From a virus, in IMG/VR virus record IMGVR_UViG_3300042319_000531, positions 1 through 25,229 of that record: a DNA stretch of 25,229 nt; one strand, given 5' to 3'. Below the pieces are notes generated by a model. The model had not been told where the DNA came from. It worked only from the letters and a program-made list of their open reading frames with translations, and made no database searches. A program made the translations under genes and the position numbers. Positions 1,708-24,555 of the stretch are shown piece after piece. Numbering within the stretch: position 1 is the stretch's first letter; each line of letters starts with the position of its first letter.

Positions 1708-1716
1708 TATAAATAT
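1708..1716 (-). promoter_or_regulatory. Late-promoter-like element ATATTTATANA (copy 1)
   Basis: The minus strand reads ATATTTATA followed by CA, 20 nt before the ATG of the 63-aa gene and just after the stop of the 313-aa gene. It is one of six copies that share the 11-mer ATATTTATANA, each in an upstream gap of this window. Confidence 0.6.
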
Positions 1717-1720
1717 AACA

Positions 1721-2662
1721 TTATGTATCAAAACGAACAATAAAGTTTAAAGGATAGTTTGGTTCTGATTTAATTGGTTGTGGTAGTTTAGCTACAGCTA
1801 CCATATTTAATTCATCATCGTATAATCCAATTGTTGTAATATATGGCGCCAAATAAGAACCAGTAGGGTCTAATGAACCGCTGTATTCAAAATCATCAAA
1901 ACTACCAAATCTATTAGGGTCTATTTCTGATATATATGGATGATATGCACCTCTAACTACTTTAGTACCAGCCTCATAGACAGATATTTGCTTCAAAGTA
2001 TTTCCAGTTATATCATTTTTATCAGTAACCATATGTTTAACTACTTGTCCACCATATTCTAAAACTGCCGATGGGTTTTGGGAATAATTAAATTCATTTT
2101 CCAATACAGAAAGAAATAATTCATTTTCATATATTGTTTTAGTAGAACGAAAATTTAACGTAAATTGAGATAACACAGAACCACTAACAACGTTTTTAGT
2201 TAAAACAATTAAGCCCCTATCATAAAATACATTACCAATAATACTACCAGTTATATCAGTTAAATTTGAATTACCATCGTCTGTATATACTTTACTAACC
2301 GTATCATCTTGTAATACAACGGTACTAGCTTTAATACCCTCACCATAATATATTTGAGGAATTGAAAAAACTGCAATATTACCATCTAACACTCTTTCAT
2401 TTGTAGATGCATATGATATACGTTTACCAACTTCGGTTAAAATTGAAGCAGTTGCAGAATTACGATAAAATTGAGATTTTATTGATGCGTATATTACCTT
2501 TTTATTATATCCATGGCTTTTTTCATCATTATCAACATCAACTAATGAGCCTGAATTGGTTACTCCAAAAATTGGATTAATATCATTTTCATCCAAAGTC
2601 CATTCCTTGTAAACCTTAATAGGTCTTGTTATTATATCCGATTTTGGAATTTCTTTCAACAT
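1721..2662 (-). CDS. Virion structural protein, paralogue of the 416-aa protein
   Basis: A 313-aa protein of the beta-rich tail/baseplate type found in T4-like phages. Its second half matches the upstream 416-aa neighbour: FYDRGLIVLTKN against FYADRGIIVLNAK, NEFNYSQNP against NREFNYSNNP, and YITTIGLYDDELNMVAVAKLPQPIK against FITTIGLLNDSNEMIAVAKTSQPIV. The N-terminal half (KVYKEWTL, IPQIYYGEGIKASTVVLQDD) has the look of a separate beta domain with a surface loop. SGS/TGS tracts are frequent, as in the neighbours. It is preceded by an intrinsic terminator and its own ATATTTATANA element, so it may be expressed independently. The likely role is a fibre-baseplate adaptor or other tail surface protein; the exact position in the virion is inferred from context only. 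Confidence 0.7.
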   Translation of the reverse strand: MLKEIPKSDIITRPIKVYKEWTLDENDINPIFGVTNSGSLVDVDNDEKSHGYNKKVIYASIKSQFYRNSATASILTEVGKRISYASTNERVLDGNIAVFSIPQIYYGEGIKASTVVLQDDTVSKVYTDDGNSNLTDITGSIIGNVFYDRGLIVLTKNVVSGSVLSQFTLNFRSTKTIYENELFLSVLENEFNYSQNPSAVLEYGGQVVKHMVTDKNDITGNTLKQISVYEAGTKVVRGAYHPYISEIDPNRFGSFDDFEYSGSLDPTGSYLAPYITTIGLYDDELNMVAVAKLPQPIKSEPNYPLNFIVRFDT

Positions 2663-2677
2663 TTAGTTTTGATTTTA

Positions 2678-2686
2678 TATAAATAT
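2678..2686 (-). promoter_or_regulatory. Late-promoter-like element ATATTTATANA (copy 2)
   Basis: The minus strand reads ATATTTATA followed by TA, 15 nt before the ATG of the 313-aa gene. It lies immediately downstream of the terminator hairpin, forming a terminator-promoter pair. Confidence 0.6.
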
Positions 2687-2693
2687 TCCAGAA

Positions 2694-2725
2694 ATGAAAA
2701 ACCCCCATTAAAGGGGGAATTTCAT
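2694..2725 (-). terminator. Intrinsic terminator after the 416-aa gene
   Basis: In the sense (minus) direction the sequence forms a hairpin with a CCCCC/GGGGG core and loop TTTAAT. An outer ATGAAA/TTTCAT arm extends it across a small A/T internal loop. The 3' G run is followed by TTTTTCATTT, a U-rich tail typical of rho-independent termination. It lies shortly after the TAA of the 416-aa gene (2743) and before the start of the 313-aa gene. Confidence 0.85.
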
Positions 2726-2742
2726 ATTATGCTAATTTTTAA

Positions 2743-3993
2743 TTAGAATGATAATTTAACTTTTATTAATACTTCCTTATCAAAAGATTTAACAATTGGT
2801 TGAGAAGTTTTAGCTACTGCAATCATTTCGTTTGAATCGTTTAATAATCCAATAGTTGTTATAAATGTTTGAGGGTCAGTATTGAATGTTGATTCAACAA
2901 AAGTACCATCAGTATTTACATATGTTGGGTTATTAGAATAGTTAAATTCTCTATTTGTTGCTCTTACAAAGAAATGCTGTGTAGATACATTTTCAGTTCT
3001 TCTAGCTTGGAAATCGGAAATTACTCCATTATATCCAGTTTTGATTGATGATAATAATCTATAATGATTAAATTGTTCAGATGTTTGTATAGCACTACCA
3101 CTCAAACTACCACTTATTACTTTACTTCCATCAGGAGTGTAAATTGTTTGATTAGGTATATCACCAACTTTAGAACCTATTGCTTTTGCGTTAAGAACTA
3201 TAATACCTCTATCTGCGTAGAATAAACCATATCCTTCCCCAGTTGTTGGGTCAGTAGCTTGTTGGAATTCAGCTTCGTTTTCAGTACCTAATTTTAAATC
3301 ACCTACACCTACTTTAAATACGTTACCACTTAATCCGTTAGTATCAGAGAATTTTTTACCACTATTATCAATAAATGTAAAAATACCAAAAGAACCTGAA
3401 AGTGGTATTGACCAGTTTCCAGCATCCATTTTTTCTCTATATCTACCTCTAGCTATATTAATAACATATATTCCGTTTGCATCAGTTGCTATTCCAGAAG
3501 CGTTATCAAATTGGAATTTAGTTGCAGTTGGGTCTAATAACATTGCTCTATATTGAGCGTATGTTGCTTTTGTAGACATCAACGCAGTATCATTATCTTG
3601 CAATGTCATAGAACCACTTCCATTAACGTGTCCATATGCTACTGCAAATTGAACTTCTGCAGATGAATTAAATAATGGATTTACATTGTAAGCGTTTACA
3701 TAATAGTAACCACTTTGTCTTTGAGTTTCAGTAGAAGATGTAAAAAAGCTTGTTAAAGAGCCCGAATCACCACTCCACAGTCCAGTTGTTACTATTTCTA
3801 CTTTTGCATTTACTTTATCAAATTCACCGAATCTTTTATAAACCCCAGTTGATATAGCTCCAGATGTTCCAATTTGTTGGCCTGCTGGTAAAACTGAGTT
3901 TAATAAAGATACCAATTGATTTGAATCCACCGTACCAGTGTTAGCCAATGCTGCTATCTGTGCGGTTATATTTGGGTCATTAATTAGTGCCAT
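2743..3993 (-). CDS. Virion structural protein (EFNYSxNP family)
   Basis: A 416-aa beta-rich tail protein of the kind seen near baseplate genes in marine T4-like phages. The N-terminal ~100 residues contain a helical start (NDPNITAQIAALAN) and then TGLWSGDSGSLTSFFTSS. The middle holds repeated SGS tracts (LSGSFGIF, SGSLSGSAIQTS). The C-terminal ~130 residues contain FYADRGIIVLNAK, NREFNYSNNPTYV and ITTIGLLNDSNEMIAVAK, shared with the 313-aa paralogue. There are no enzymatic motifs or cysteines. The ATG at 3993 follows an AT-only leader of about 19 nt after the 209-aa gene, so the two are likely co-transcribed. A strong terminator follows. Probable role: baseplate periphery or tail-fibre attachment. 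The family is recognised; the exact function is not. Confidence 0.75.
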   Translation of the reverse strand: MALINDPNITAQIAALANTGTVDSNQLVSLLNSVLPAGQQIGTSGAISTGVYKRFGEFDKVNAKVEIVTTGLWSGDSGSLTSFFTSSTETQRQSGYYYVNAYNVNPLFNSSAEVQFAVAYGHVNGSGSMTLQDNDTALMSTKATYAQYRAMLLDPTATKFQFDNASGIATDANGIYVINIARGRYREKMDAGNWSIPLSGSFGIFTFIDNSGKKFSDTNGLSGNVFKVGVGDLKLGTENEAEFQQATDPTTGEGYGLFYADRGIIVLNAKAIGSKVGDIPNQTIYTPDGSKVISGSLSGSAIQTSEQFNHYRLLSSIKTGYNGVISDFQARRTENVSTQHFFVRATNREFNYSNNPTYVNTDGTFVESTFNTDPQTFITTIGLLNDSNEMIAVAKTSQPIVKSFDKEVLIKVKLSF

Positions 3994-4012
3994 TTTTTAT
4001 ATATATTTTTTA

Positions 4013-4642
4013 TTATACTGTTGGTTTGTAAATTACAGTTACCGGTATTGTTTGTGAACCTCCTGTTTCATTACCATAAACAGTCAACGTTGTTGAAATA
4101 TCAATTGTTAAGCTTGGGTTTGGAGTAAATCTAAACATTCTACCACTAACTACTTGTGCAGTTGTTGTAATTTCTTCCCCTAAGAATACAGGAACAGTAC
4201 CAGTACCATTTGCTCCTTGAGTTACAGTTATTGTACCAGCTCTTTGGTCTGCTAATACCATTGTGTATCCAGCATTTACGTTTCCAGCAGGATTAGTTGT
4301 TGGTTCTAATGGAACACCACCTTCTGATTGATTTACACTAATTTGAGGATATCCCAATCTTACAGTTGGGATTTGAGTAGTTCCTTTTGGAAGGGTTACT
4401 AACTTATATCTTAATACTTGAGTCTCATCAGGAGATGCTTCCGTTACAGGAATAGCTCTGATTGCTGAATCGTAATAAGCTGAACCTTTCGGGTGTGCTG
4501 GTTCATAAAGCGTATAGTCAATCTCATCATCACCCAAAGCAAACTTTGTAATGTTTAATGATTGACCGGATGCTAATTTTTGTCTTCCTTTTTTGGTAAG
4601 AATTGCATCTACTGTAATTTCTGTGTTATCTAAATATGCCAT
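4013..4642 (-). CDS. Phage structural protein (DAILTKKGRQKLA family)
   Basis: A 209-aa protein whose first 45 residues carry a motif recurrent in tail and fibre genes of T4-like phages: YLDNTEITVDAILTKKGR followed by LNITKFALGDDEIDYTLY. The rest is beta-rich and poor in charged residues, with many Thr and Val residues, and ends in strands that look like an immunoglobulin-like or fibre-shaft domain (ITVTQGANGTGTVPVFLGEE; IDISTTLTVYGNETGG). It has no cysteine, signal peptide or catalytic motif. It sits between the 1774-aa mosaic and the 416-aa protein, and follows an ATATTTATANA element 24 nt upstream of its ATG. Most likely it is a tail or fibre-associated virion protein; a role in attaching fibres to the wedge is inference. 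Confidence 0.7.
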   Translation of the reverse strand: MAYLDNTEITVDAILTKKGRQKLASGQSLNITKFALGDDEIDYTLYEPAHPKGSAYYDSAIRAIPVTEASPDETQVLRYKLVTLPKGTTQIPTVRLGYPQISVNQSEGGVPLEPTTNPAGNVNAGYTMVLADQRAGTITVTQGANGTGTVPVFLGEEITTTAQVVSGRMFRFTPNPSLTIDISTTLTVYGNETGGSQTIPVTVIYKPTV

Positions 4643-4666
4643 TTGATATGTTTTTTATCTATATTC

Positions 4667-4675
4667 TATAAATAT
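4667..4675 (-). promoter_or_regulatory. Late-promoter-like element ATATTTATANA (copy 3)
   Basis: The minus strand reads ATATTTATA followed by GA, 24 nt before the ATG of the 209-aa gene, in the 53-nt gap after the 1774-aa gene. No terminator hairpin is visible in this gap. Confidence 0.6.
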
Positions 4676-4695
4676 AACTAATTTTTATTTTCCAA

Positions 4696-7600
4696 TTAAT
4701 CTACTTCAAGTATTGGTTCACCACTACCTCTACCAGTCTTAGCCACTCTAAGAATGTTAGGATTGGTTGTAAATGTTTCAACTGGGTCTAAACCATCTGG
4801 CGTTGTTTGAGCCGTTTGTAAAGAACCATTAAAGTATGACCTTCTCATTCCTTCTGATAAATTATTAGTAAATCTATAATGCGTTGGTAAATATCCATTA
4901 ATTGCCGTAACTTCTGTTATATCTCCAGCAACTGCAATACTTCCACTAAAAGGTAGTATTGATACAAGATATTTATCGTAATTTTTTGTAATTGTTTCAT
5001 ATATTACAGGACCAGATATTGTTGTTGGGTAACCACTCACTTGTATTTTTTCTTTTAAAGATTTTGTTTCTTTTACTAAAAATACACTCTTTCTACTTCC
5101 TGTTATTTCGGTATTACCGAATAAACCATCATAATCTCTATAAATCGCATTACCTCTAATTGCATATAAACCATATCCAATATTTGCTAAAGAATTTTTT
5201 TCCATTCCAATTTGTTGAAACTTATTAACATAATCACCAGTTAATGTTGCTCCAGAAGAAACTACTATGTTTATAGAACCAGTTTTAGGAAATGTTGGAT
5301 AATCACTTTCTATGTTATTTGTAAAATCATAATCTATTTGAGAATTATAAGTTTCATTTGCACCTTCTAATGTAGTTATATCATTTGCATCTAAAGTTGT
5401 ATCATAATTATTTAATTCATATGATAACGAAGATACTTCCTCTGCGTTTATGTGTGCATCTTTTGGAATAGAATCTGCATTTAAAAATACATCTTCATTC
5501 GTATCAATTAAAGTTTCAAAATCATTTCTTAATGATTCTGGTCTATCCCATTTTATTTTACTTCTTTCTAAAAAATGTGGTTCAATTAATAATCCTTTAG
5601 ATATATTAGTTCTAGCAGGTGCTAAATCAGAAAGTACTTCAAATAAAGATTTATCAATATATTTTACCAATCTTATATATTCATAAATATCTCTACCATC
5701 TAATCTTTCAAAATAATAATGCCTTAATGTATCTAATTGAGAATATGTAGTTTTATATTCATCCGATGGGTCTCCAATATAATTATCAATATTAAAATCC
5801 CCAAGAACCTTAAGTATATCCATATTTAACTCCTTAATAGGAGAGAAGAATAATCCTAAACGATTTGAATCTATTGGTGCTCTATCGAATGCTTTTTTAG
5901 TAGCTCTTACTTTATGAGATAAATCCCCAACAAGTTCTTGCTCCTCAAATCTAATTTTATTTGAATAATTAAATCCTAAAGATGGGACAGTAGCTGTAAC
6001 AGTTCTATCATATGGCGTATATTGATACGGATATGCTGAAGCTGAATACATATTACTTGCGGATGCGAATGGTTCTCCATAGGATTGATTTATTGAAACG
6101 TTTTTAATAAACGAATCTTTTGTTCTATCTTTTGGATATTCAAAATCTAAACGGAATATTAAATCAGATGTAGATGCTGTTACGGAGTTACCGTTAATTG
6201 CATCAGGAAATAAAGTATGATTTTCAAATTTACTTCTTTGTAATGGAACAGTCCATAAACGGAATTCATCTATATTACCAGAATATCCGTTACCACCTAT
6301 TTGCAAAGTAGAACCAGTTGTCCATTGTCCATCAACCGATGCAATAGACATACTAACCGAAGTTATTATTCTAGTACCATTTGAAGTTGCTAACCAAACC
6401 TCATACCAAGAAGATGAATCAGGACTATTGTGTCTATTAATAGATACATTAGAATAGTGCTCTAATGATATTGGGAAATCCAAACTACCAGTCTTCCAAT
6501 CAGGTCCAAATACATATTCAATAGATGATTCTATATATGGATAATACGTTCCGCTTGTTTCAAAGTAAGTACTAACAGATTGGTCACCTCCAAAGTTAAA
6601 TTCTAATTTACCAAATGAACCAGTTGTTTGTATTAAATCCAAAGTCCACTCACTACCACTAATTAAAGTATAAGATGTATTTGGTATTTTAGCCGGCTTT
6701 ATTCTGAATTCAATACCATTTGGATAATCTTGCGTTAATGAAGAACTATGCCAAGGTATTTTAACATTAGAACTACCATTACCATTTAAACTTCCCGTTA
6801 AAAATATTGCGGCTGTTCTATCATCAAATGTAAATTGTGTACTTCCTCCTTTTGTTGGGTCTTGAGGTCCACCAAATTCCATTATTGTCAACATAGATTG
6901 AGGTACACCATAACAAGCCATTACAGCTTTTAATGCTCTAGCAGTACCTTTATGTTTTAATAGATATGGTAAGTTATTTGCAATTCTTCTCCAAACTTCA
7001 AAATTTGCATCTTGCAAACTTGTAGAAAATTTAGGTCTACCTTCTTTATCACTACCAAACATATATTCCCAAAGGAAATTAGAATTAAATGCTTTTTTAC
7101 TTTTCCATCCCAATGAATCAAGTAAAGAATATATTAATTGATTTGGTATTCCAGTTTCTTGTTTATGCTCTAATTTCTTAGTTCCTTTTAATGCGTTTAT
7201 ATAACACCAAATAACATCAAAATGTTGGCCAATCATATCTAAGAATAATATAAATTCATTATTCTCATAATCATCGGTTATAAATTCAGGCATATTATTT
7301 TTCATAGAATTAACATTATACTTATCGTAATACAATGCGCTTTCTAATGCGTAGTTATACCAAGTAATAACAGTAGAATCCGTAGCTACTTTTAATACTC
7401 TATAATAAAAATCTTTTTCAGTATCATACAAATCCCTCTTAGGATATGCTAATGAATTTTCTGATTTAAATAAAAACTTTTCAAATCCGTCAAATGTTTT
7501 TACTAAATTTGATATTTTTTCTCCAATAGATTTTGCCTCCAACTCAACATATATAGGAGAGTATTGTGGATATTCCCATTGAAGTTCATCTATTGAATCT

Positions 7601-12372: not shown

Positions 12373-13455
12373 TTATTGTTTTACAATACTAAATGTTATA
12401 TCTTCATCAATATATTGAATATCACCATCCATATCAACTTTGAATTCAATTTTATATACTCTATCTGCTTGCCAATTAGATAAATTCAATTTTATATAAT
12501 TACCATTTGAATCACAACTAATTTTAGAATAATCACTAAAAGGAATTATAATATCATCAGATGCGTAATCTTTTATCTGATAATAAGTTGTTTGTGGTAG
12601 GTATTTTATATTATTATATGCAAATGTATTCGTAAATGTTTTTAAAGGATATAATTCTCTACCAAATATTCTTATAGTAGGTGTAGTACCAACCTTATAT
12701 TCTTTTTTAAAATTATTTACTCCAACTTTAATATCCGTTGCTGTTAATGGAGATAATGACGAAGTTATAAATGATTGGTCATCCCAACCTATTCTAATTT
12801 TTGGTTCGTATATTGTATTTGTTTCTTTACTAAACACCCTTACTATACCATAATCTTGCGTATCGTTCTCAACACTATCAGAGTGTTTTATTATAATACC
12901 ATCATTTGGTATCCCACCATTTATAGAACCACTCATCCAACCTTTTAATATATTCGTAACATCCAGTTGGATATCAGCAGTTTGATAATTGAACGATTGA
13001 TTTGCTACGTTAGCTACCCACCAAGTACCACCAGTACCATCATTTGGATTTGAATCAGTTCCTAAATTTAATCCGTTTTGTAACCACTCTAATTTACTAT
13101 CACCTTCTCTATAATTCCAAGTTACACCAGCAGTTGAAATATTATCAAAACGAGTACCTTTACCCATTTGCCAACTTCCACTAATAGCGTATGCATATAA
13201 AGTATATTCTAATGGAATTTCTTCACTTTCAGTTTCTTTTAATATTAAATCTGCACTTTGCATTTTAATAGTTCCGGAAGTCAATGATGCAGATAAAAAC
13301 CCAACATCAAATTTTAATAATGCTCTCGATACATCCTTCACATTACCATAATAAATTTTACTTATCTCTAAGATTTCATCCAAACCAGTATTTTGATTTG
13401 GCTGCTGTAAATAAACCGATGCATCTTTTGATGCTGTTAAAAAATAGTATGCCAT
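12373..13455 (-). CDS. DNRLRE-type beta-sandwich baseplate/tail protein
   Basis: A 360-aa protein. Residues 1-225 have the features of the DNRLRE fold: SKDASVYLQQPNQNTGLDE at the start, SRALLKFDVGFL, IKMQSADLILKETESEE, YAYAISGSWQMGKGTRFDN, a GVTWNYREG segment, the ILKGWMSGSI helix and the closing YEPKIRIGWDD. This fold usually stabilises extracellular or surface assemblies. Residues ~230-360 form a second beta domain (TIRIFGRELYPLKTF, YYQIKDYASDDIIIPF, NGNYIKLNLSNW), a pairing I recognise from structural proteins next to gp6 in T4-like phages. The ATG shares its A with the gp6 stop codon (TAATG), which indicates translational coupling with gp6. The likely role is a baseplate surface or fibre-attachment protein. 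Whether it binds glycans is unknown. Confidence 0.7.
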   Translation of the reverse strand: MAYYFLTASKDASVYLQQPNQNTGLDEILEISKIYYGNVKDVSRALLKFDVGFLSASLTSGTIKMQSADLILKETESEEIPLEYTLYAYAISGSWQMGKGTRFDNISTAGVTWNYREGDSKLEWLQNGLNLGTDSNPNDGTGGTWWVANVANQSFNYQTADIQLDVTNILKGWMSGSINGGIPNDGIIIKHSDSVENDTQDYGIVRVFSKETNTIYEPKIRIGWDDQSFITSSLSPLTATDIKVGVNNFKKEYKVGTTPTIRIFGRELYPLKTFTNTFAYNNIKYLPQTTYYQIKDYASDDIIIPFSDYSKISCDSNGNYIKLNLSNWQADRVYKIEFKVDMDGDIQYIDEDITFSIVKQ

Positions 13456-15491
13456 TATCTTACTCTACCTTTAATGTCTGAATCTGGAAACTTTATTTCA
13501 AATATAGATGGGTCTAATGATGGATATACAATCTTTCCCTTAGTTGCCGATTCTATATTATATGAATTTGGAGAATATGGAGTTCCACATTTATTTTCTA
13601 CTTTGAAAAATGGTACGGATGCAACTCCTTCTACATTTGCTATTAATAATTCAACTTCACTCAAATTTATTGTTTGATTAAATTGCCAATTATCAATATT
13701 AAAATAATCTTTTAATTCAGAAATACATTTTGCCAATACTTCACTTTTATTATAATTTTGGTATGCAGTTATTTCAAAATCCAATCCGATATTAATAATA
13801 AATCCATCACTAATATTAACACCATCGGTAAGCATTTTAAACTCCCCCATATATGTTTTTATATTTTCTTTAACTGCTTTATTTAAATTAGTTAATCTTC
13901 CGTTTAAGTCATATCCAAGCAAATATAAATTAATTGCAAATGGATTATTTTTTTCAGTTTCATTGGAAGTCTTACCAATTAAAAATTTTGTAATATCAGA
14001 AGATACACTAGCTCTAGTTGGTTCTTCGTTATCAGGCATATTTACAAAACTCATTACTAAATCAGTAAATTCTTGCAAATGATTTGGTGATGCTAATATA
14101 GATGATGGTGAATTATTATCTAAAGTACCATCTGCAACAGCGTATGATTTTGCAACTGCCCCATATTTAGTTGGCATTGATATTGTTCTTATTTGATAAT
14201 CTTTTGCAGTTACTGCTCTATTTTGTGCTCCAAAATTTGCTAATGCATTTTGTCTAATTTCTTCCAAAGATTCACCACCCCTACCACCGGTAGCAGGAAT
14301 TTCATTATCAATAGCTACAGAACGTTGCGTTGCACTCATAAGAGTTAATTCAACGCTATTTAATCTTTGTGTATCTTCTTCAAATTCAATTGCTTCTATT
14401 CTAGTTAATTGCCCAGATGCTATATTTGAATTAACCCCACCACCAACTAAATACTTTACAGTTATAGTTGTTGTTGATGGAGATGTTCCGTATGTTTTTG
14501 TTTTTAAGAAGTTTGTTGGGTCAAATGATTCTTCTAATCTACTAATAGAGTTTGGTAATCCTAATCCTACATTTTTGAGGTTTGGAATTAATTGCTCATC
14601 ACTAGCAGATGAATCACCTGCGCCAAATTGTATAGTAGTTGTACTATCTTCGTTTACCTTAACTACAAATCTTTTTGGAGTTTTAATTGTTTTTAAAATA
14701 TAAGGTACAGTTGATTTAAATTGATATAATTCTTGGTCATTAGCTTCAGTATTTGGTTGGTCAATAAATACCATTTCTTGTGCTAAATACGGAACTTCAT
14801 ACCATTTGTTATTATTAGTATCTCTACAATCGTATATATCAATTACATTTGTATCTTGTAATATTATTTTTTGAAATGGTTCGTATGCACCAAATTCAAA
14901 TGTTTCTTCTTTTAGTTCTGCAGATATTGCTTTTACATACTTTTTAACTAAATAAAATAATGGTTCTCCCGTAACAGCTTCTCTTTGATATACACTTACT
15001 TCTCTACCTTCTGGTTCTGAGAAATCTACAACATCTGCTGTTCTAAATACAATACTATCTTTTGTTGAACGAGATAGCAATCCTTCTTTTATTTTTAAAT
15101 AATATTTTTCATCAGGTCTGTTATCACCACCATTTCCAACAGAAGGAACTAATTGATAAACACTTAATGTTGTTACTGCTGGTGATGTTACTTTTGGTTT
15201 ATATCCTAAATATTGAGATAATGCTATTACACTTTTTATATCTTCTGCATAAGACATCATAGATTCTTTCAATGTATCATCTATATAATATGATAAAGAA
15301 TCTCCAATATAAGATGCCATTTCAATAAACATCATACCAGGAGATGATTCATTAAAATCAGAATATGTTTTAGGAAAATATGTTTTAGAAAATTCAATTA
15401 AGTTATCTCTAAATCCAACAAAGTCCTTGCCAAGATATTTTACATCCTTGCCTTTGTTTTTAAAGTTTTTATTTGTAATAGTTAATCCCAT
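13455..15491 (-). CDS. 6: Baseplate wedge protein gp6 (baseplate J-like)
   Basis: This is the core wedge subunit that forms the baseplate ring with gp7 and gp25 and transmits the contraction trigger. At 678 aa it is close to T4 gp6 in length. Residues 15-120 match the gp6 N-terminus: YLGKDFVGFRDNLIEFSKTYFP, NESSPGMMFIEMASYIGDSLSYYIDD, ALSQYLGYKPK. A typical beta-clip/J-like middle follows (TTTIQFGAGDSS, VKYLVGGGVNSNIASG). Around 400-435 lies the baseplate-J signature GESLEEIRQNALANFGAQNRAVTAKDYQ. The C-terminal third resembles the dimerisation domain. It starts 12 nt after gp25, in the same order as in other contractile injection machines, and its stop overlaps the next start by one base. The assignment is firm on motif and synteny. 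Confidence 0.93.
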   Translation of the reverse strand: MGLTITNKNFKNKGKDVKYLGKDFVGFRDNLIEFSKTYFPKTYSDFNESSPGMMFIEMASYIGDSLSYYIDDTLKESMMSYAEDIKSVIALSQYLGYKPKVTSPAVTTLSVYQLVPSVGNGGDNRPDEKYYLKIKEGLLSRSTKDSIVFRTADVVDFSEPEGREVSVYQREAVTGEPLFYLVKKYVKAISAELKEETFEFGAYEPFQKIILQDTNVIDIYDCRDTNNNKWYEVPYLAQEMVFIDQPNTEANDQELYQFKSTVPYILKTIKTPKRFVVKVNEDSTTTIQFGAGDSSASDEQLIPNLKNVGLGLPNSISRLEESFDPTNFLKTKTYGTSPSTTTITVKYLVGGGVNSNIASGQLTRIEAIEFEEDTQRLNSVELTLMSATQRSVAIDNEIPATGGRGGESLEEIRQNALANFGAQNRAVTAKDYQIRTISMPTKYGAVAKSYAVADGTLDNNSPSSILASPNHLQEFTDLVMSFVNMPDNEEPTRASVSSDITKFLIGKTSNETEKNNPFAINLYLLGYDLNGRLTNLNKAVKENIKTYMGEFKMLTDGVNISDGFIINIGLDFEITAYQNYNKSEVLAKCISELKDYFNIDNWQFNQTINLSEVELLIANVEGVASVPFFKVENKCGTPYSPNSYNIESATKGKIVYPSLDPSIFEIKFPDSDIKGRVR

Positions 15492-15503: not shown

Positions 15504-15926
15504 TCAAATGTTAAATGATACTGTGTTTAATTCAGGACTATTCCTTACATTAAATGATATCGTAATACCAACTGTATTTCTATCTTTGTTATCGTTTGAT
15601 TGATTTACGTTTATTTGCTGAACAACTATATAAGGTAACCAATTTTCCAATGAATTTGTTATGGTTTCTTCAATTTTTTCAGATAGAGTATCATCATTAA
15701 AATCAAATAACAATTCTTGAAGTCCACTACCAAAATTAGGTTGCATTATTCTTTCACCTTTTTTTGTAAGTAATAGATTCTTTATATTAGATTTAGCTTG
15801 TTCAAAAGTTGTGAAAGACTGATTAAATGCAGTATTACCTATTTGAATAGGTAAAGTTATACCTATTGCATGGTCTTCATACTTCTTAGTGTCTTGAACA
15901 AGCTTCTGCCCTAATACAATTGCCAT
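15504..15926 (-). CDS. 25: Baseplate wedge protein gp25 (lysozyme-like fold)
   Basis: gp25 family proteins clamp gp6 to the sheath-initiating end of the baseplate; despite the family name they are structural. This 140-aa protein has the usual size and motif order: GITLPIQIGNTAFNQSFTTFEQAKSNIKNLLLTKKGERIMQPNFGSGLQELLFD (split here for description at residues ~22-75), then a helix (LSEKIEETITNSLENWLPY) and closing strands (GITISFNV). The family's usual EPRFG-like core appears as QPNFGSGL, a mild variation. The ATG at 15926 shares its A with the stop codon of the 166-aa gene (TAATG). gp6 follows 12 nt downstream, the standard order. Confidence 0.92.
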   Translation of the reverse strand: MAIVLGQKLVQDTKKYEDHAIGITLPIQIGNTAFNQSFTTFEQAKSNIKNLLLTKKGERIMQPNFGSGLQELLFDFNDDTLSEKIEETITNSLENWLPYIVVQQINVNQSNDNKDRNTVGITISFNVRNSPELNTVSFNI

Positions 15927-16426
15927 TATTTCTTTTTAAATCTTTTAACCAATTCCGAATAATCTCTATTCAATGCTTTATCCAATTCAGGCACTCCAGT
16001 GTTTACACCCAATCCAGTAGAAGAAGGTCCTTTTGCTAAATCACCATAACCCATTTTTTCAGCTATTGCAGTTCTACCTACAATTGAACCCATATCACCC
16101 TGTCCAAAATTCATTGTTCTGAAACCACCATCACCAGTTGCAGGTGTCATTGCGGTTTCGTTTAGAATTTGGTTAATCATTGGGTTTTTGCTAAATTGCT
16201 TTGTAGGTACTACCTTTGGTGCTACTGATTCTTCGATAATTTCATCTTCCATCATAGCTTTAGCCATTGATAATCCAGTATTTTTAGGTTGTACTGGTTG
16301 TTTACCTTCACTTAATAATCTTTTTACTTCCTTTTGTACGGATTCTTTGATTAACGCAGGTAATTGCTCCTTCAATTCCTCTTTTATAAGGATTTGTATA
16401 GCTTTTAATAATTTATCTGTGTTCAT
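15926..16426 (-). CDS. Hypothetical baseplate-region protein, 166 aa
   Basis: I do not recognise a named family. Residues 1-42 are strongly helical and amphipathic (LLKAIQILIKEELKEQLPALIKESVQKEVKRLL), a likely coiled coil. Residues 43-120 are low complexity and flexible (QPVQPKNTGLSMAKAMMEDE, then Gly- and Met-containing stretches such as GDGGFRTMNFGQGDMGS). The C-terminus has a short conserved-looking end (GVPELDKALNRDYSELVKRFKKK). There is no membrane segment or cysteine. It is the first gene after the ATATTTATANA element and is coupled by a one-base overlap to gp25, so it is made with the wedge. A scaffold-like or adaptor role in baseplate assembly is conceivable. Confidence 0.65.
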   Translation of the reverse strand: MNTDKLLKAIQILIKEELKEQLPALIKESVQKEVKRLLSEGKQPVQPKNTGLSMAKAMMEDEIIEESVAPKVVPTKQFSKNPMINQILNETAMTPATGDGGFRTMNFGQGDMGSIVGRTAIAEKMGYGDLAKGPSSTGLGVNTGVPELDKALNRDYSELVKRFKKK

Positions 16427-16443
16427 ATATTGTTTGTTATGTT

Positions 16444-16452
16444 TATAAATAT
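16444..16452 (-). promoter_or_regulatory. Late-promoter-like element ATATTTATANA (copy 4)
   Basis: The minus strand reads ATATTTATA followed by AA, 17 nt before the ATG of the 166-aa gene, in the 48-nt gap after the GH19-type gene. It would drive the 166-aa, gp25 and gp6 group. Confidence 0.6.
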
Positions 16453-16474: not shown

Positions 16475-17620
16475 TTAAGTCCAAAGTGTAGGGTCTCTTT
16501 GTAACTCTGTCCAATATTTTGAAGTTTTTTTCCATCTATCAGCTACAGTATCTCTACTACCATTAACTCTATAACTAACCTCACCACATGCATATAATGT
16601 TACTTGCTTTGAATGTCTAGTAAATTGTCTCATTTTCCAAAACCAACAAGAAGCATCAGATGCACTCATCCTTGCTTCTACCAATTGTGGTTGTGCTACA
16701 TAATCTCGTTTTGGGGTATCTGCTTTACTAAATCCAATATAATTTACCTTACCGGTGATTTGTATCCATCCTCTGCCTTTATATTTTGAACCATCCCCAA
16801 CCGATGTGTTACCCAAATCACTACCAACTTTGGTTGTTGGTCCATAGACTATATCTCCCCATTTATATTCATCTTTCTTTAATACATCTATTTGAGCATC
16901 TGTATATTTTGCAACTCTACTTTTAAATACGGTTCTAATTCTACTTGCACTAGTACCAGCATAGTTTCTTAAATTTTCTGCAGTAATTTGGAATCCACCC
17001 GTTTCATGGTCACATTGTCCTAAAAAGTGAGCTCTATCTTCTGGCGTTTTTCCAACACCCCATTTTCTCATAGCAACTACCAATTCATCTGGTATTTTTA
17101 CTTTTGTTTTATAATTTGGAATTTTTTGTAATTTTACAGGTTGTTCCGATATTCCTTCTTTTTTTAATTCTTCTTTAGCTTGGATTACACTTTCTTCAAC
17201 TACTTCTGTAATTTCTTTTTCAGTTTGCTCTAATAAAGCTGGATTTGGTGGTGGCAAATCTTCGGATACAGCTAATCCAGCTGCCAATGATTGGCTACCA
17301 TTAACTGGGTCTCCTTCTGTACTACCTACTAAAGATTCCTCTGCTGCCAAATATTGAGCTTCAGTTAATGGTGTTTCATTTGGATTTAAATCTTCTCCTA
17401 TAAAAAGGTCATTAGCTGGTGTTGAAGCACCATCTCTACTATTTTTAGCTCCAGCTACCTGATACCCACTCCACATAACAACTCCGGGTGCAGTTGATGG
17501 ACCAGGATATGCTGAAACAGTTGTTATCATTCCCTTTACAGTTAAAAGATGAGTGTTTGCATATCTTATAAACTCATCTACAATTAATCCCGTATTTTTT
17601 GTTGGTTGTACTGCTGACAT
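16475..17620 (-). CDS. GH19-type muramidase/chitinase domain, tail-associated cell-wall hydrolase
   Basis: This protein probably cuts the glycan of peptidoglycan. The catalytic region is residues ~172-360 of 381. It shows the GH19 signature HFLGQCDHETGGF (198-210), with Glu206 after His205 as the general acid, the ENLRNYAG segment, and YKGRGWIQITGKVNY (280-294), the substrate-cleft motif. Residues 1-165 are a non-catalytic, Ala/Pro/Glu-rich region that contains KGMITTVSAYPGPSTAPGVVMW, similar in style to the N-terminus of the next enzyme upstream, and a helical stretch (ALLEQTEKEITEVVEESVIQAKEELKKEG). There is no signal peptide, so it is more likely carried on the tail than secreted. It starts 4 nt after the M15 gene stop. 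An endolysin role at lysis is the alternative. Confidence 0.85.
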   Translation of the reverse strand: MSAVQPTKNTGLIVDEFIRYANTHLLTVKGMITTVSAYPGPSTAPGVVMWSGYQVAGAKNSRDGASTPANDLFIGEDLNPNETPLTEAQYLAAEESLVGSTEGDPVNGSQSLAAGLAVSEDLPPPNPALLEQTEKEITEVVEESVIQAKEELKKEGISEQPVKLQKIPNYKTKVKIPDELVVAMRKWGVGKTPEDRAHFLGQCDHETGGFQITAENLRNYAGTSASRIRTVFKSRVAKYTDAQIDVLKKDEYKWGDIVYGPTTKVGSDLGNTSVGDGSKYKGRGWIQITGKVNYIGFSKADTPKRDYVAQPQLVEARMSASDASCWFWKMRQFTRHSKQVTLYACGEVSYRVNGSRDTVADRWKKTSKYWTELQRDPTLWT

Positions 17621-18932: not shown

Positions 18933-18940
18933 ATTTTATA

Positions 18941-20254: not shown

Positions 20255-20257
20255 AAT

Positions 20258-21493
20258 CTACGATGTTTGATTTAATTTACTTAATACAGTATTCAACTTA
20301 GATTTTATTGATGCAAATTTAGAAAGATTTTCTGGTCCTACTTTAGATGGGCCGGATGGTGTTAAGTAATTTTGATTTGCTATTGCATCAATTAATTCAC
20401 CTAACAAAGCTACCAAAGTTTCACCTTTAACCATAGCTTCTAAATTTTCATTACCTAAAAATATATGTCCCTTTCCAGTTTGAAATGCAACATCTCTATC
20501 ATTAGTCATTACATGTATATTATCTCTTACAGTAACATCAATTCCTAATTTGTTATCAATTGACATTCCACCATCTGAAATAAATCCGTAATTCTTTTTT
20601 GAATAAAATATCATTTCACCACTTTTTGCTGATAGAATTATTCTTCCAGAATTTAAAAGTATTTGGTCACCTATTAATTTAGATGGGTAGTTATCAAAAG
20701 ATTCTGGTTTAGTTGTAAAATTCGATGTACCTTTATCATCAATAACGCCAGGTTGAAATTCTAATTGATATTGGTCTGATGTTAATGCTATAATGCTCCC
20801 ATCTCTATTTATATCTTCTTCCGATGGAAACATTATTACTTTTTTCAAAGAATTAACGCTTTCATTATTTCTAATAATAATTGTTGGTGAAAATACATTT
20901 TTAGGATTATTGTATCCACTAAATCTTATTGATTGTCCAAATCTACTTTCAAGTATAGTATCTCCTTCATATAATTTTAATTTATGAATGCCGGGAGTTC
21001 TTTTAAAATAATTACCCAATCCATCATATTTTTCAGAAGCATTTACATTTGTTTTTGCAATACCAGTTGCTTGGACTTTTGCTATATCTTTGGCACTATC
21101 AGTATCTAATTTTTGAGCTGGGAAATTTGTTGATATAAATTTTTCATCAGCTGTAGAATTTGGAGATGATTCTGCTGTAATTCTTTTGTAAAATGATTGA
21201 CCTGTACCTGAATTAATTATTTCTACAGTTTCATTTCGTAATGGTATTGTTTTAAAGTTTTTATCATATGGATATGCAACTGGTAAGGAATTTTCATCAG
21301 CCATAGCTTGTGATGATAATCTATATAATATAGCACCAACATAAGATGCCTCATTACCAATTGCATCTTGTTTGTTTTTTAAAAATGGGTCTTTTTCATC
21401 TAAAATTACTCTATAAACAGTACCAAAACTACCTCCAGATGAATTTTGTCCTGCTTGAGTTGCCGATGCTGCGGCTGTTTGTGCGCTTTGCAT
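20258..21493 (-). CDS. 5: Central spike protein, gp5-like without lysozyme domain
   Basis: This is the puncturing hub spike of the contractile tail. After an Ala/Gln-rich start, residues ~20-110 fit an OB-fold region (GTVYRVILDEKDPFLKN, AILYRLSSQAMADENSLPVAYPYD). Residues 168-195 (IHKLKLYEGDTILESRFGQSIRFSGY) are the signature I associate with gp5 of marine T4-like phages. Residues ~270-350 show short repeated strands (GDQILLNSGRIILSAKSGEMIFYSKKNYGFI... split over several turns), typical of the triple-stranded beta-helix. T4 gp5 (575 aa) has a lysozyme domain in between; this 411-aa protein has none. It ends in TAG, 3 nt before the PG-binding gene. PAAR/gp5.4 tip and gp27 hub genes are not in the window. 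Confidence 0.82.
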   Translation of the reverse strand: MQSAQTAAASATQAGQNSSGGSFGTVYRVILDEKDPFLKNKQDAIGNEASYVGAILYRLSSQAMADENSLPVAYPYDKNFKTIPLRNETVEIINSGTGQSFYKRITAESSPNSTADEKFISTNFPAQKLDTDSAKDIAKVQATGIAKTNVNASEKYDGLGNYFKRTPGIHKLKLYEGDTILESRFGQSIRFSGYNNPKNVFSPTIIIRNNESVNSLKKVIMFPSEEDINRDGSIIALTSDQYQLEFQPGVIDDKGTSNFTTKPESFDNYPSKLIGDQILLNSGRIILSAKSGEMIFYSKKNYGFISDGGMSIDNKLGIDVTVRDNIHVMTNDRDVAFQTGKGHIFLGNENLEAMVKGETLVALLGELIDAIANQNYLTPSGPSKVGPENLSKFASIKSKLNTVLSKLNQTS

Positions 21494-21494
21494 A

Positions 21495-21887
21495 TTATTT
21501 CATTTTCTTTTTTAGTTCCTCCATTTCAAATTCCAAATCATCTACTCTTTCAACTTCTTCTTTAGTAGTTTCCAATTCTCTAAGTAGTTGTTCTTTTTCA
21601 AATGCCGATAGGAATCCTTCCTGTCCTTCAGTCTTTTTATCAGCTGCCACAATCTTAGTTGCAATAGCCGCTAACTTAACCAAATGGTCATCGTTTCTAA
21701 TTGAACTATCTATTAGTGAATTGATTAATGGTCCTAAGTTACCCATATCGCTTGGACTTCTAACCATATTTTTTAAATCATTGATTAAATCGCTGATTCT
21801 TGCTTTCTTATGTACTTGGTTGTTGTATATATCCTGAAATAATCCATTTAGGGATTTACCGGGAAATAATTCGAAATCGTTTGACAT
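21495..21887 (-). CDS. Hypothetical coiled-coil protein, 130 aa
   Basis: I recognise no family. It is mostly helical: residues 10-60 include LNGLFQDIYNNQVHKKARISDLINDLK, 60-85 a Leu/Ile-rich helix (LINSLIDSSIRNDDHLVKLAAIATKIV), and 98-130 a clear Glu/Lys heptad coiled coil (EQLLRELETTKEEVERVDDLEFEMEELKKKMK). There is no cysteine, membrane segment or enzyme motif. It is the first gene after an ATATTTATANA element and lies one base before the spike gene, so it is likely a late protein used in hub or spike assembly. The length and position recall small baseplate-hub chaperones or hub components such as T4 gp26/gp51, but I see no sequence support for a specific one. Confidence 0.65.
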   Translation of the reverse strand: MSNDFELFPGKSLNGLFQDIYNNQVHKKARISDLINDLKNMVRSPSDMGNLGPLINSLIDSSIRNDDHLVKLAAIATKIVAADKKTEGQEGFLSAFEKEQLLRELETTKEEVERVDDLEFEMEELKKKMK

Positions 21888-21913
21888 ATTAATATATTTA
21901 CATTTTGTATGTA

Positions 21914-21922
21914 TATAAATAT
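21914..21922 (-). promoter_or_regulatory. Late-promoter-like element ATATTTATANA (copy 5)
   Basis: The minus strand reads ATATTTATA followed by TA, 26 nt before the ATG of the 130-aa gene, in the 56-nt gap after the Ntn-hydrolase gene. It would drive the spike and cell-wall enzyme group. Confidence 0.6.
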
Positions 21923-21943
21923 GGTTCTATTAAAATGTTGAAA

Positions 21944-22759
21944 TTAAACTGGGATTACTTCTATTGTAATCTTAGGTTGATATCCCTCAGGCAGTTGTCT
22001 ATTAATACCTTTAAATTCGTTTACTTTGTTCTTAAAGTAAGTTATTTGTAATACCTTATCAGTTAGGTTCATTACAGTTTGAGATGAAGTAGACATCTCC
22101 TTTGTATCTCTTTTCATATTCAATTGAGGCTTAGTTGGAAAGTATTCTTTTCTCATAGCCTGTGCTATTGCTTTCCAATCTTCTACTTTATCAACTGATT
22201 TTTCAGCTGATATCTTTCTCATTTTTGAACTTAGATATTTCTCACCATGTGTGTATCCAGCATCGGTGAACATATGTCCGTGATTTGTTCTAACAACCGG
22301 TGATTCGGAGTTTTGAAGTTTAACATCCGGCTTATGCTTTGATGTAGTTTCAATACTAACCATATGTTTTGGTGATGATACAAATGTATGACCCTTCAAA
22401 GATAATCCACTCTTACCTTTATATTGTAGTGCTGCTCTTACTGCATCCATTAGGGTAGGTTGCTTAATGATGTTTCTCATCTTATCACCATCAGGTCCTG
22501 GCTTTCCAGCTTTCTTTACAAGCTTAGCCTCAGCCTCATCGTGTCCAACTAATAGTGCTGCGTTTACAACACCAATTCCGTTTTCATTTAAACCCTCACT
22601 CCAATCAGTTATTAAATCATGTAGATATGCAACTTCCACACCATCGATGATAGTATGTACAATTTCTAAAGAAGGATTATAAGCTCTATCTCTATTCTTA
22701 GCTAATATAAATTTATCCTTAATTTCTTTAGATACAATGATACACTCTGAAAGTTTCAT
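21944..22759 (-). CDS. Ntn-hydrolase-fold amidase/acyltransferase (linear amide C-N hydrolase-like)
   Basis: A 271-aa protein with the pattern of the cysteine Ntn-hydrolases that include penicillin-V acylase and isopenicillin-N acyltransferase-like enzymes, which hydrolyse or transfer amide-linked acyl groups. Key elements: Cys6 as presumed nucleophile, ILAKNRDRAY (18-27), the strand pair EIVHTIIDGVEVAYLHD, GLNENGIGVVNAAL (56-69), RTNHGHMFTDAGYTHG (147-162) with Asn149 as likely oxyanion residue, and STSSQTVMNL (223-232). These enzymes become active when a cut exposes the nucleophile as the first residue. Here only MKLSE precedes it, and L-S-E resembles a prohead-protease site. The ATG directly follows an in-frame TAA of the 281-aa gene. 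The substrate is unknown; host acyl-homoserine-lactone, lipid or peptide amides are only possibilities. Fold fairly sure, chemistry not. Confidence 0.72.
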   Translation of the reverse strand: MKLSECIIVSKEIKDKFILAKNRDRAYNPSLEIVHTIIDGVEVAYLHDLITDWSEGLNENGIGVVNAALLVGHDEAEAKLVKKAGKPGPDGDKMRNIIKQPTLMDAVRAALQYKGKSGLSLKGHTFVSSPKHMVSIETTSKHKPDVKLQNSESPVVRTNHGHMFTDAGYTHGEKYLSSKMRKISAEKSVDKVEDWKAIAQAMRKEYFPTKPQLNMKRDTKEMSTSSQTVMNLTDKVLQITYFKNKVNEFKGINRQLPEGYQPKITIEVIPV

Positions 22760-23605
22760 TTAATTAATATAGCAGTTTAGTTCGTATTCATTTTGTCCAC
22801 CATATAAACTTCTAGTCTTAGAACCATCTTGGGCTCTTTTATAAGTTCCCATACCATAGACTTGAATATGTAACATTTTCTTTTGAGGTTTACCATTTTT
22901 AGTTAGTTCAATAGAAAATCTATTTGTTTTACCGTCCGATGGTTTTTTGGGGCCCATGCCTATTTTTCTAAATGAATCATCATCATCAATTTCATATCCT
23001 TTTTTCTCTGCATATGCTTTAGCTGCTTGAATTGCCGATGTATATGTGTAATGGTATACTGGGTAATCTGATTTTGCTTCCGTTACTGATTCTTTTACAA
23101 ACTTTCCATCTTTATCAGATACATAATAAGCAATCATATTATATGAACCACCTCTTTCCTTTTCAAGTTTTTCTACTGCTTTTTTAGCATCTTTATATGA
23201 TGAATAAGAATCTTTAAAAACTCCCGTACCTTGTCCTCTACCTTTATTATATCCTACATGATACAATCCTTCGTTTACTGATTCGTTTGTTGATACAAAT
23301 AATCTTACTGAAAGAATTACATCCTTACCAATATTTAAACTTCTTACTTTATGTTTTTCTAAATCGTAAGCCGGATTAAGTACAGTTGCTTTTGCAATTA
23401 CACCATCTTTAATAAAGTGTGGTTGCAATCCAGAATAGTTATCATCTCTAAACATAAAAACATCTTTAGGAGAATCCTTTGATATTTTAATTATCTTTTT
23501 TAAACCTTCTTTACCAACAAAACAACCACCTTCGCATTTAGTTCCACCATAGGTTTTACCTTTTTGCAATTTTACTTCGTTTATTATATCTTTTAACTTT
23601 ATCAT
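22760..23605 (-). CDS. Putative head-targeted multi-domain protein with prohead-protease-like sites
   Basis: A 281-aa protein with no named family. The N-terminus MIKLKDIINE/V resembles the capsid-targeting peptides of T4 internal proteins (MKTYQEFIxE/A). Two further ESVxE sequences occur: ESVNE/G at 108-112 and ESVTE/A at 172-176. They divide the chain into three segments of about 102, 64 and 105 residues. Segment 1 has a Cys-containing GGTKCEGGCFVGKEG and a mixed beta region. Segment 2 (GLYHVGYNKGRGQGTGVF, a Lys-rich helix, NMIAYYVSDKDGKFV) looks like a small alpha/beta domain. Segment 3 ends in GKTNRFSIELTKNGKP, KKMLHIQVYGMGTYK and NEYELNCYIN. It lies one base after the 89-aa gene, which has a similar N-terminus. 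Head packaging and processing are inference; it may equally be an uncleaved cytoplasmic protein. Confidence 0.65.
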   Translation of the reverse strand: MIKLKDIINEVKLQKGKTYGGTKCEGGCFVGKEGLKKIIKISKDSPKDVFMFRDDNYSGLQPHFIKDGVIAKATVLNPAYDLEKHKVRSLNIGKDVILSVRLFVSTNESVNEGLYHVGYNKGRGQGTGVFKDSYSSYKDAKKAVEKLEKERGGSYNMIAYYVSDKDGKFVKESVTEAKSDYPVYHYTYTSAIQAAKAYAEKKGYEIDDDDSFRKIGMGPKKPSDGKTNRFSIELTKNGKPQKKMLHIQVYGMGTYKRAQDGSKTRSLYGGQNEYELNCYIN

Positions 23606-23606
23606 A

Positions 23607-23876
23607 TTAAAATGCTATTGAAATGTAATCACCATCAGCTTCTACCCAACGAATTTTTAAAGATAATAACTTTTTTAAATCATCAGCTTCAAATCTATAA
23701 TTACCATGACCACCTATTGCTTTTATATCAACAATAAATCCGTGTATTCCTTCGTATATAGAATCAACCTTTCCACCAATTATCTTTTCAAAAGCTTGAA
23801 CTTGCTTTTGTTGAGTTGGCTTTAAATCTTTAAACGTTATTTCAGATGCTTCGTTTAGTTGTGATAATTTTATCAT
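23607..23876 (-). CDS. Small protein with head-targeting-like N-terminus
   Basis: An 89-aa protein with no named family. It begins MIKLSQLNE/A, very similar to the next gene's MIKLKDIINE/V, with L-N-E followed by Ala, which fits the (I/L)xE consensus of T4-type prohead proteases. The rest is a compact alpha/beta fold: a helix (LKPTQQKQVQAFEKIIGG), strands (KVDSIYEGIHGFIVDIKAIGGHG), a helix (FEADDLKKLLSL) and strands (KIRWVEADGDYISIAF). There are no cysteines or catalytic motifs. One-base gaps separate it from both neighbours, so the three genes form one tight unit. It could be a small internal head protein or a DNA-binding or regulatory protein; both are speculative. Confidence 0.62.
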   Translation of the reverse strand: MIKLSQLNEASEITFKDLKPTQQKQVQAFEKIIGGKVDSIYEGIHGFIVDIKAIGGHGNYRFEADDLKKLLSLKIRWVEADGDYISIAF

Positions 23877-23877
23877 C

Positions 23878-24528
23878 TTATTTCTTTACTTTAATTTTCC
23901 AATATGTACCAAATCCAATATAAGGTGAGAATGAACCATTAGTTCCATCAACAGTTCTATTATTTACACCAATGTTTAAGTTGTAGATTTTATCTTTTTT
24001 AGTCTTAAGAATTAAACCAGCACCAACTGCAGAAACATAATCTTCTTTATTGAATCCAGCATTCAAACCATAATATAATTGAGTTTTTGCAGGCTCTTTA
24101 ACAATCATAGTTTCTTTGATAGTTCTTTGTTTAACGCTTGCGTTGAAAGTTCTACCTAAGATTTTGTTTTGTGAGATAGTATCAGTTACAGCCACAGTTC
24201 CTAATGAATCAGGCAATACTAATACATCTTTGTATAATACTTTTGAATAGTAATCTTTTAATAATGCAGCTGTATCAATTACCGCTGGAATGATTACTTC
24301 CTTCTCTACAATTGTTTCATGGTAGATATCTTCACCTTTCTTAGTTACTACTTTAGTCTTTACAATATCAACAGTATCGATTTCGTGCTTAATTATTTCA
24401 TATTTTTTACCCTCAATACGGATAGTTCTTCCACCTGGCATTACTCCACCCGGATTAAACCATTGTAAAAGGATGTAAATAACCAATGCTGCTATGGCAA
24501 TGTTTTTGAAATTAACAAATTTTTTCAT
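23878..24528 (-). CDS. Membrane-anchored envelope protein with beta-rich C-terminus
   Basis: A 216-aa protein. Residues 1-8 are basic and ~9-24 form a single hydrophobic helix (IAIAALVIYILLQWF), an uncleaved signal anchor with an N-in topology. After Gly/Pro residues there is a Val/Thr/Lys-rich extended region (~35-145: YEIIKHEIDTVDIVKTKVV, ETIVEKEVIIPAVIDT). Residues ~148-216 read like beta-hairpins of an outer-membrane protein: TQLYYGLNAGFNKEDYVSAVGAGLILKTKKD with aromatic ends, then FSPYIGFGTYWKIKVKK. No lipobox is visible. It follows the outer-membrane-barrel-like gene across a 36-nt gap with an ATATTTATANA element. An envelope-spanning (spanin-like) or host-envelope-modifying role is plausible but unproven. 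Confidence 0.65.
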   Translation of the reverse strand: MKKFVNFKNIAIAALVIYILLQWFNPGGVMPGGRTIRIEGKKYEIIKHEIDTVDIVKTKVVTKKGEDIYHETIVEKEVIIPAVIDTAALLKDYYSKVLYKDVLVLPDSLGTVAVTDTISQNKILGRTFNASVKQRTIKETMIVKEPAKTQLYYGLNAGFNKEDYVSAVGAGLILKTKKDKIYNLNIGVNNRTVDGTNGSFSPYIGFGTYWKIKVKK

Positions 24529-24546
24529 AATATATTATTTTATGTG

Positions 24547-24555
24547 TATAAATAT
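24547..24555 (-). promoter_or_regulatory. Late-promoter-like element ATATTTATANA (copy 6)
   Basis: The minus strand reads ATATTTATA followed by CA, 18 nt before the ATG of the 216-aa gene, in the 36-nt gap after the outer-membrane-barrel-like gene. Confidence 0.6.

Follow-up and report, generated by a model that had tools for sequence, protein, structure and literature searches.

The 25,229-base stretch of the IMG/VR virus record IMGVR_UViG_3300042319_000531 (hereafter the window, that is, the whole stretch of DNA that was analysed) carries six copies of a short element, ATATTTATA in the sense strand, each ahead of a gene. We consider it likely that the six sites are T4-superfamily late promoters with a single -10-like element, which is most likely read by a phage gp55-like sigma factor. 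We infer their promoter role in vivo and their late firing from the position, strand, and conservation of the sites, the lack of a -33 element, their separation from a host-type promoter class, and a conserved phage protein with a predicted fold like that of sigma region 2.

The original prediction had described six exact copies of ATATTTATANA. A search of the window found exactly six, all on the minus strand (1706, 2676, 4665, 16442, 21912, and 24545), as is every credible gene in our open reading frame (ORF) calls. A both-strand count against shuffled sequence, a check named beforehand, was run on the window; 1.19 copies (standard deviation 1.03) are expected on both strands, and none of 100 shuffles reached six. 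The gaps given earlier between the end of ATATTTATA and the start codons at 2662, 16426, 24528, 1687, 4642, and 21887 were confirmed as 15, 17, 18, 20, 24, and 26 nt, respectively. Likewise, no copy lies within a gene: all six ATATTTATANA sites are wholly intergenic, in the 508 of 25,229 bases that the ORF calls leave non-coding, and ATATTTATA does not occur on the plus strand of the window. Eight upstream gaps in the window are at least 33 nt long; six hold the late element, one (before the primase gene) holds the host-type TANNTTTG, and the last, of 75 nt, is an artefact of the ATG-only ORF calls, which missed a GTG start at 1495. What lies beyond chance in the window is the longer word together with its strand and position, rather than the bare 8-mer TATTTATA, whose five plus-strand copies all lie within genes. 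A sigma-70 consensus scan of positions 1600-4800 was uninformative (20 vs. 17.4 expected).

The comparison set comprised the window and 160 related loci, about 818 kb once redundant parts were masked, and upstream regions were defined as non-coding stretches of at least 15 nt before the ATG of our own ORF calls, not of curated genes. In 243 such regions (10 from the window), the sense copies of ATATTTATA numbered 120 (6 in the window) and the antisense copies 2, which argues against a base-composition artefact; the 796,853 coding bases (window included) contained 27 copies, 9 sense and 18 antisense. An orthologue test then covered 15 of the window's roughly 24 genes, leaving out tblastn matches that began past query residue 6 or had less than 100 nt upstream, and duplicate upstream sequences. 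For the six downstream genes, 175 of 178 distinct sequences upstream of orthologues contained ATATTTAT, as against 1 of 209 for eight other genes (0/47, 1/12, 0/59, 0/30, 0/22, 0/15, 0/14, and 0/10), which are mostly packed tightly inside the same units. The looser pattern [ACT]TATTTA[AT] was seen before three control genes (7/59, 1/14, and 1/12). These orthologue counts measure conservation, not independent events, because the sequences have a common ancestry. A logo built from 169 ATATTTAT sites showed no -33 element, a G three bases before the word in 50% of sites, A-rich sequence 3' of the element, and a gap to the start codon of 4 to 60 nt. De novo motif searches were run on seven sets (LR756508, T4, FCL-2, and phi38:1 were given fixed-word counts only) and returned ATATTTATA both in the window clade (about 200 of the 243 regions) and in a 136-kb relative, G001 (31 of 43 regions).

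The six elements, all on the minus strand, are distributed over the window as follows. ATATTTATACA at 24545-24555 precedes the 23878-24528 transcription unit (ATATTTAT before 8/9 orthologues), ATATTTATATA at 21912-21922 precedes 21495-21887 and the tail/lysis cluster below it (11/11), and ATATTTATAAA at 16442-16452 precedes 15926-16426 and the baseplate cluster (23/23). ATATTTATAGA at 4665-4675 stands before 4013-4642 (48/49), a second ATATTTATATA at 2676-2686 before 1721-2662 (50/51), and a second ATATTTATACA at 1706-1716 before 1496-1687 (35/35). Ten nucleotides before the 2676-2686 element is a terminator-like hairpin with a T tail (2697-2718, minus strand), found by pattern match only. A PHROGs profile scan of 20 window proteins matched primase, baseplate wedge and gp25-like proteins, and endolysins, the remainder being mostly matchless; a Pfam scan of 10 gave no match. 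The baseplate wedge-like gene at 13455-15491 (a late function; phrog_219, 2.5e-19) and the gp25-like baseplate wedge gene at 15504-15926 (phrog_261, 1.3e-23) lie within the 16442 unit, and an endolysin/chitinase-like gene at 16475-17620 (phrog_181, 1.9e-34) lies within the 21912 unit, all three on the minus strand. Together with the orthologue test, these matches bear out the earlier claim of a promoter-like element before late-type genes (baseplate, lysis).

The same DNA offers a contrast in the form of a host-type promoter. The Bacteroidota housekeeping promoter consensus consists of a -33 TTTG and a -7 TANNTTTG. Before the primase gene (2-829, minus strand; phrog_47, 3.9e-42), the printed sequence reads TTTG (876-879), 20 nt, and TATATTTG (848-855), a host-type promoter spanning 848-879 on the minus strand. 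Upstream of primase orthologues, TANNTTTG was found in 31 of 36 cases and the late element in none of the 36, in agreement with the claim that the two are distinct. At 28 TANNTTTG sites taken from the comparison DNA, TTTGG lies 20-24 nt upstream. TTTG occurs 17-27 nt upstream of 12 of the 169 late sites vs. 20 of the 28 host-type sites, and its absence from the other 157 late sites, as from the logo, upholds the claim that the element has no conserved -33 TTTG. The late element thus does not fit the Bacteroidota sigma-A pattern (-33 TTTG plus -7 TANNTTTG). The two share an AT-rich -7 region containing TATTT and occur in the same phages, but the late element differs in having neither the -33 TTTG nor the final G and in being variable at its first T. 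The host of the window phage is presumably a member of the Bacteroidota.

By protein, the nearest named records are Flavobacterium phage immuto, Microcystis phage Mel-JY01, and the uncultured phage LR756508, with Rhodothermus phage RM378 more distant. In the cultured immuto, a phage of Flavobacterium sp. LMO8, ATATTTAT occurs 31 times on the gene strand and 4 times on the other, and [AC]TATTTAT lies upstream of the terminase, portal, sheath, tube, and tape measure genes. The immuto late class (ATATTTAT plus CTATTTAT) precedes the genes for terminase, Gp20-like capsid assembly (portal), tail sheath, tail tube, hub, tape measure, and tail spike, as well as the gene immediately upstream of the baseplate genes. 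A second class consists of TTG followed by TATATTTAG; 14 of its 16 sites lie at 60.5-77 kb, mostly before small unnamed genes. Counted as distinct genes, 21 at 77-160 kb carry the late class and none the TATATTTAG class, as against 2 and 14, respectively, at 60.5-77 kb; Fisher's test of class by segment (2e-8) is descriptive, as the borders were set after the listing was seen. Eight of the 32 late-class sites lie at 0-60 kb, so that the class split, and with it the placement of the element before virion and lysis genes rather than early replication genes, is not absolute. TTG stands 17-27 nt before TATATTTAG at every site (16/16 in immuto and 61/61 in marine relatives, 77/77 in total), as compared with 0/15 and 10/104 for CTATTTAT and 5/17 and 7/44 for ATATTTAT in immuto and the marine relatives, respectively. 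In the TATATTTAG class (L161-L164 for immuto, and L167-L246), GTATCAAT often comes next. The host-like shape of the TTG/TATATTTAG class suggests a host-type variant that probably serves these phages as their early promoter.

RM378 (NC_004735), which has genes on both strands, carries TATTTAA in 36 upstream places, with upstream regions here and in the marine ATATTTATA count delimited by the same ORF-call rule as above. Before the 44 genes with a same-direction upstream neighbour, the word was counted 15 times in sense vs. once in antisense, and before the 34 divergent genes, which share their upstream DNA, 18 times vs. 15 times; both counts exclude sense/antisense pairs that overlap, which held 1 and 2 sense sites. 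Its upstream regions contain no ATATTTAT, and its de novo motif is TATTTAAA. Points of likeness in RM378 are a tail gene that is related (22% of the query, E 6e-7), the TATTTAA element before genes on both strands, and p020, a member of the protein family described below, but the flanks differ, TATTTAA standing in place of ATATTTATA. We also observed that the first T of TATTTAA in RM378 (L271-L273) is often exactly 13 nt before the called ATG; with TATTTA starting at -13, such mRNAs would be leaderless. In a marine set of 80 contigs, picked for their relative of immuto gp118, CTATTTAT was found 104 times in sense vs. 9 in antisense before plus-strand genes. The core common to the relatives is TATTTA, with varying flanks. 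ATATTTAT was found in 0 of 31 upstream regions of Flavobacterium phage FCL-2 and in 0 of 42 regions in 50 of the 72.5 kb of Cellulophaga phage phi38:1, and the gp118 profile found nothing below E 0.01 in FCL-2 and the same 50 kb of phi38:1.

The candidate reader is gp118 of immuto, an unnamed protein of 232 aa. The gp55-family profile phrog_234 matched one of 15 records, immuto at 78186-78521 (E 0.008), where gp118 is encoded, and none of 14 large related contigs; phrog_12791, another late-sigma profile, had no match in the 15 records. Relatives of gp118 were found in at least 600 viral-contig stretches, also in locus L079, Mel-JY01, LR756508, and, within the window clade, two of 14 large contigs; the family profile matches RM378 p020 as well (E 3.9e-7). 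An AlphaFold2 model of the L079 relative (mean predicted local distance difference test score 79.9) had T4 gp55 (7d7c_F) as its best structural match (Z 10.2, 120 residues, root mean square deviation 3.7); the other rows among the 50 matches listed are sigma factors or models labelled as sigma subunits, several of them tied within 1 Z. The N-terminal part of gp118 is thus predicted to fold like sigma region 2, the model of the L079 relative being the one that displays this fold. A PDB profile search with the gp118 alignment gave nothing significant (best E 0.16). Folded and searched alone, the C-terminal part had no clear match (Foldseek best E 1.9; best Z 5.8), so that it points to neither a sigma-4 nor a gp33 role. 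RM378 p144, annotated as a sigma factor, was rejected as a gp118 relative, as the gp118 profile barely matches it (E 3.6). The sliding-clamp profile phrog_223 (gp45 type) matched none of 16 related records (immuto, RM378, and 14 contigs), where a divergent clamp is possible; the T4 control gave 3e-86. In the 320 nt upstream of the candidate sigma gene itself, TANNTTTG was found at -304 in G002 and not in G014. Behind the gene, ATATTTAT occurs within the last codons of the gp118-like gene in L247 (2205; gene end 2223, next gene 2235) and, in L248 (2652), after the gene that follows the gp118-like gene (2615) and before an ORF at 2737; late units may begin directly behind the sigma gene in these two loci. 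The search for a gp55-like sigma, also named beforehand, therefore had a divided outcome: the relatives' gp118 has a predicted fold best matched by T4 gp55, but the window has no match.

Like the sites described here, T4 late promoters stand before late genes and consist of one -10-like element with no conserved -35 partner, and gp55 is the top structural match of the phage protein with a predicted sigma region-2 fold. The core is TATTTA here and TATAAA in T4; the gp118 relatives (230-249 aa among 46 aligned) are longer than gp55 (185 aa), with a C-terminal helical part that has no clear PDB match; and the profile search found no gp45-type clamp. The original prediction had proposed that the recognition sequence is inverted relative to T4, and TATTTATA is indeed the exact reverse complement of TATAAATA. 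Upstream of genes in the window and 160 loci, TATAAATA was found twice in sense and 123 times in antisense; in the T4 late region (22 regions), it was found 8 times in sense and 2 in antisense before plus-strand genes, and 2 and 4 times, respectively, before minus-strand genes. However, a same-direction reading of TATTTATA and TATAAATA matches six of the eight positions (T-13, A-12, T-11, A-8, T-7, and A-6) and leaves two central substitutions (-10 and -9). In the T4 structure, gp55 reads the non-template strand and places its A-12, A-9, and A-8 in pockets (PMC7892883); the same-direction alignment retains two of these three adenines, -12 and -8. For a sigma factor that reads this strand, turning the promoter around would also turn around the direction of transcription. 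In RM378, whose genes lie on both strands, TATTTAA stays in sense before genes with same-strand neighbours, and the relatives share the TATTTA core with varying flanks, which also argues against inversion. We therefore rejected the inverted form of a gp55-type promoter, to which we assign a very small probability. The wider claim of a gp55-type late promoter is upheld only by inference from the predicted fold of the relatives' gp118; the sequence support for it is weak.

How the candidate would read the element can be sketched from the T4 structure. Each site would be a single -10-like element that lacks a -33 partner, reads ATATTTATA in sense with the core TATTTA, and precedes the first gene of its unit by 15-26 nt; baseplate and lysis genes are found in those late units to which a function can be given, and the primase gene would use the host sigma-A type instead (TTTG, about 20 nt, TANNTTTG). 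A phage-encoded gp55-like sigma of the immuto gp118/RM378 p020 family would take over the host core RNA polymerase, and its region 2 would, by analogy, capture non-template A-12 and A-8, TATTTA occupying -13 to -8. With TATTTATA set at -13 to -6, A-12 and A-8 would be kept and -10 and -9 changed. We compared the gp55 pocket residues with 46 aligned family members through a weak hhalign pairing, on which all the following counts depend. Y97 (-12 pocket) pairs with Y in 46/46 and F86 with F in 45/46 (Y in one); L54 becomes I/V, and R57 becomes T in 46/46. In the -9 pocket, N13 is replaced in 45/46 (T in 43, N in 1) and H95 in 46/46 (Y/F), and T99 (-8) is kept in 1/46 (G 35, Q 8, S 2, T 1). On this alignment, the retention of Y97 and the replacement of N13 and H95 would suit the proposed register, but the loss of T99 would not.

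Several observations weigh against late promoters read by the gp118 family. By itself, the 8-mer TATTTATA shows no enrichment in the window (11 vs. 8.28 expected; 24 of 100 shuffles reach 11), and at 4 of the 169 sites the element ends 4-5 nt before the called ATG, too close for the -13 register, which would put the transcription start past that ATG unless the starts are miscalled. In immuto, one gene annotated as endolysin (22125) carries the TATATTTAG class. De novo searches of G002, immuto, and the marine set ranked a TATATTTA-type word first rather than ATATTTATA, and marine ATATTTATA shows just 36 sense vs. 18 antisense copies. Despite their gp118 relatives, Mel-JY01 and LR756508 had ATATTTAT in 3 of 22 and 1 of 21 regions (50-kb stretches each), counts that are too few to decide, and Mel-JY01 gave no clear de novo motif. 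No gp118 match was found in the window (best E 0.33) or in 12 of the 14 large related contigs, including the motif-bearing G001; these contigs may be fragments. In a whole-library scan, gp118 matched phrog_234 at E 0.5, behind two families of unknown function (E 0.017 and 0.022), and the gp118-gp55 sequence link is weak though colinear (hhalign probability 10.6%, E 0.0029). For helical proteins the tool's guide value is about 13, which the Z of 10.2 does not reach; other sigmas tie with this score, and Foldseek ranked 7d7c_F 17th with E 0.68, though with probability 0.98.

These points leave room for other explanations. It is rather unlikely that the reader of the late promoter is not gp118 but a host factor (sigma-A acting at a degenerate -7 element, or an alternative sigma) helped by a phage activator. 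In favour of this, TATATTTA is similar to the host -7 TANNTTTG, a G-to-A change apart, the other class of immuto is TATATTTAG, and TTG lies 17-27 nt upstream of 37 of the 169 window-clade late sites. However, the position of the fixed first T in TANNTTTG is A in 46% of the 169 sites, TTTG is upstream of just 12 of them, and the relatives have a conserved phage protein with a sigma-like predicted fold. We give a low probability to an RNA element, that is, a signal for translation initiation or RNA processing in the late mRNA leader, AT-rich like Bacteroidota start regions. Such a signal would fit the nearness of start codons and the A-rich sequence downstream, but not the variable gap of 4 to 60 nt, the near absence of ATATTTAT from the eight other genes (1/209), the primase gene without the element, or the position of the 2676 element directly after the terminator-like hairpin. 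That the word arose by chance in AT-rich intergenic DNA is scarcely credible; the unenriched 8-mer would suit such an origin, but the 120 sense vs. 2 antisense copies in the same upstream DNA, the 175 of 178 orthologous positions, and the empty upstream regions of FCL-2 and phi38:1 all oppose it.

If the TATTTA sites are late promoters read by the gp118 family, the class may extend further. We put forward, tentatively and at somewhat less than even odds, that the whole Bacteroidota T4-superfamily clade (the window's group, Immutovirus, and RM378) has its own TATTTA late-promoter class, served by a one-piece sigma (a gp55-like region 2 plus a C-terminal domain of a new type) without sliding-clamp activation. 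Late promoters with small sequence changes are known from T4 relatives (KVP40, 44RR, S-PM2, and Aeh1; PMC2988020). None of the PMC matches listed, judged by title and start of abstract and with subscription journals and preprints outside them, dealt with a TATTTA late promoter or with the gp118 family. RM378 is the isolate nearest the "Far-T4" phages (PMC4360716), and a word search of the main text of that paper returned no occurrence of promoter, sigma, gp55, or motif. If true, the reading of the sites as late promoters would provide the late switch for a largely uncultured group of T4-like phages and would name a probable sigma factor among "hypothetical" proteins. It would also offer natural tests of a shift in gp55-type recognition (TATAAA to TATTTA) and of whether late transcription can do without a sliding clamp, and late transcription units could be marked directly in metagenomic phage contigs.

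Megablast against the phage collection gave no match for window bases 1-25,000. Two observations concern annotation. Mel-JY01 (PP395634.1), labelled as a cyanobacterial (Microcystis) phage, clusters by tail proteins and gp118 with Flavobacterium phages, and its host label may deserve a second look. The window gene at 1085-1495, with the GTG start, matches phrog_447 (1.2e-30, labelled NAD synthetase) and two homing-endonuclease profiles, and the family name NAD synthetase looks like a misannotation.

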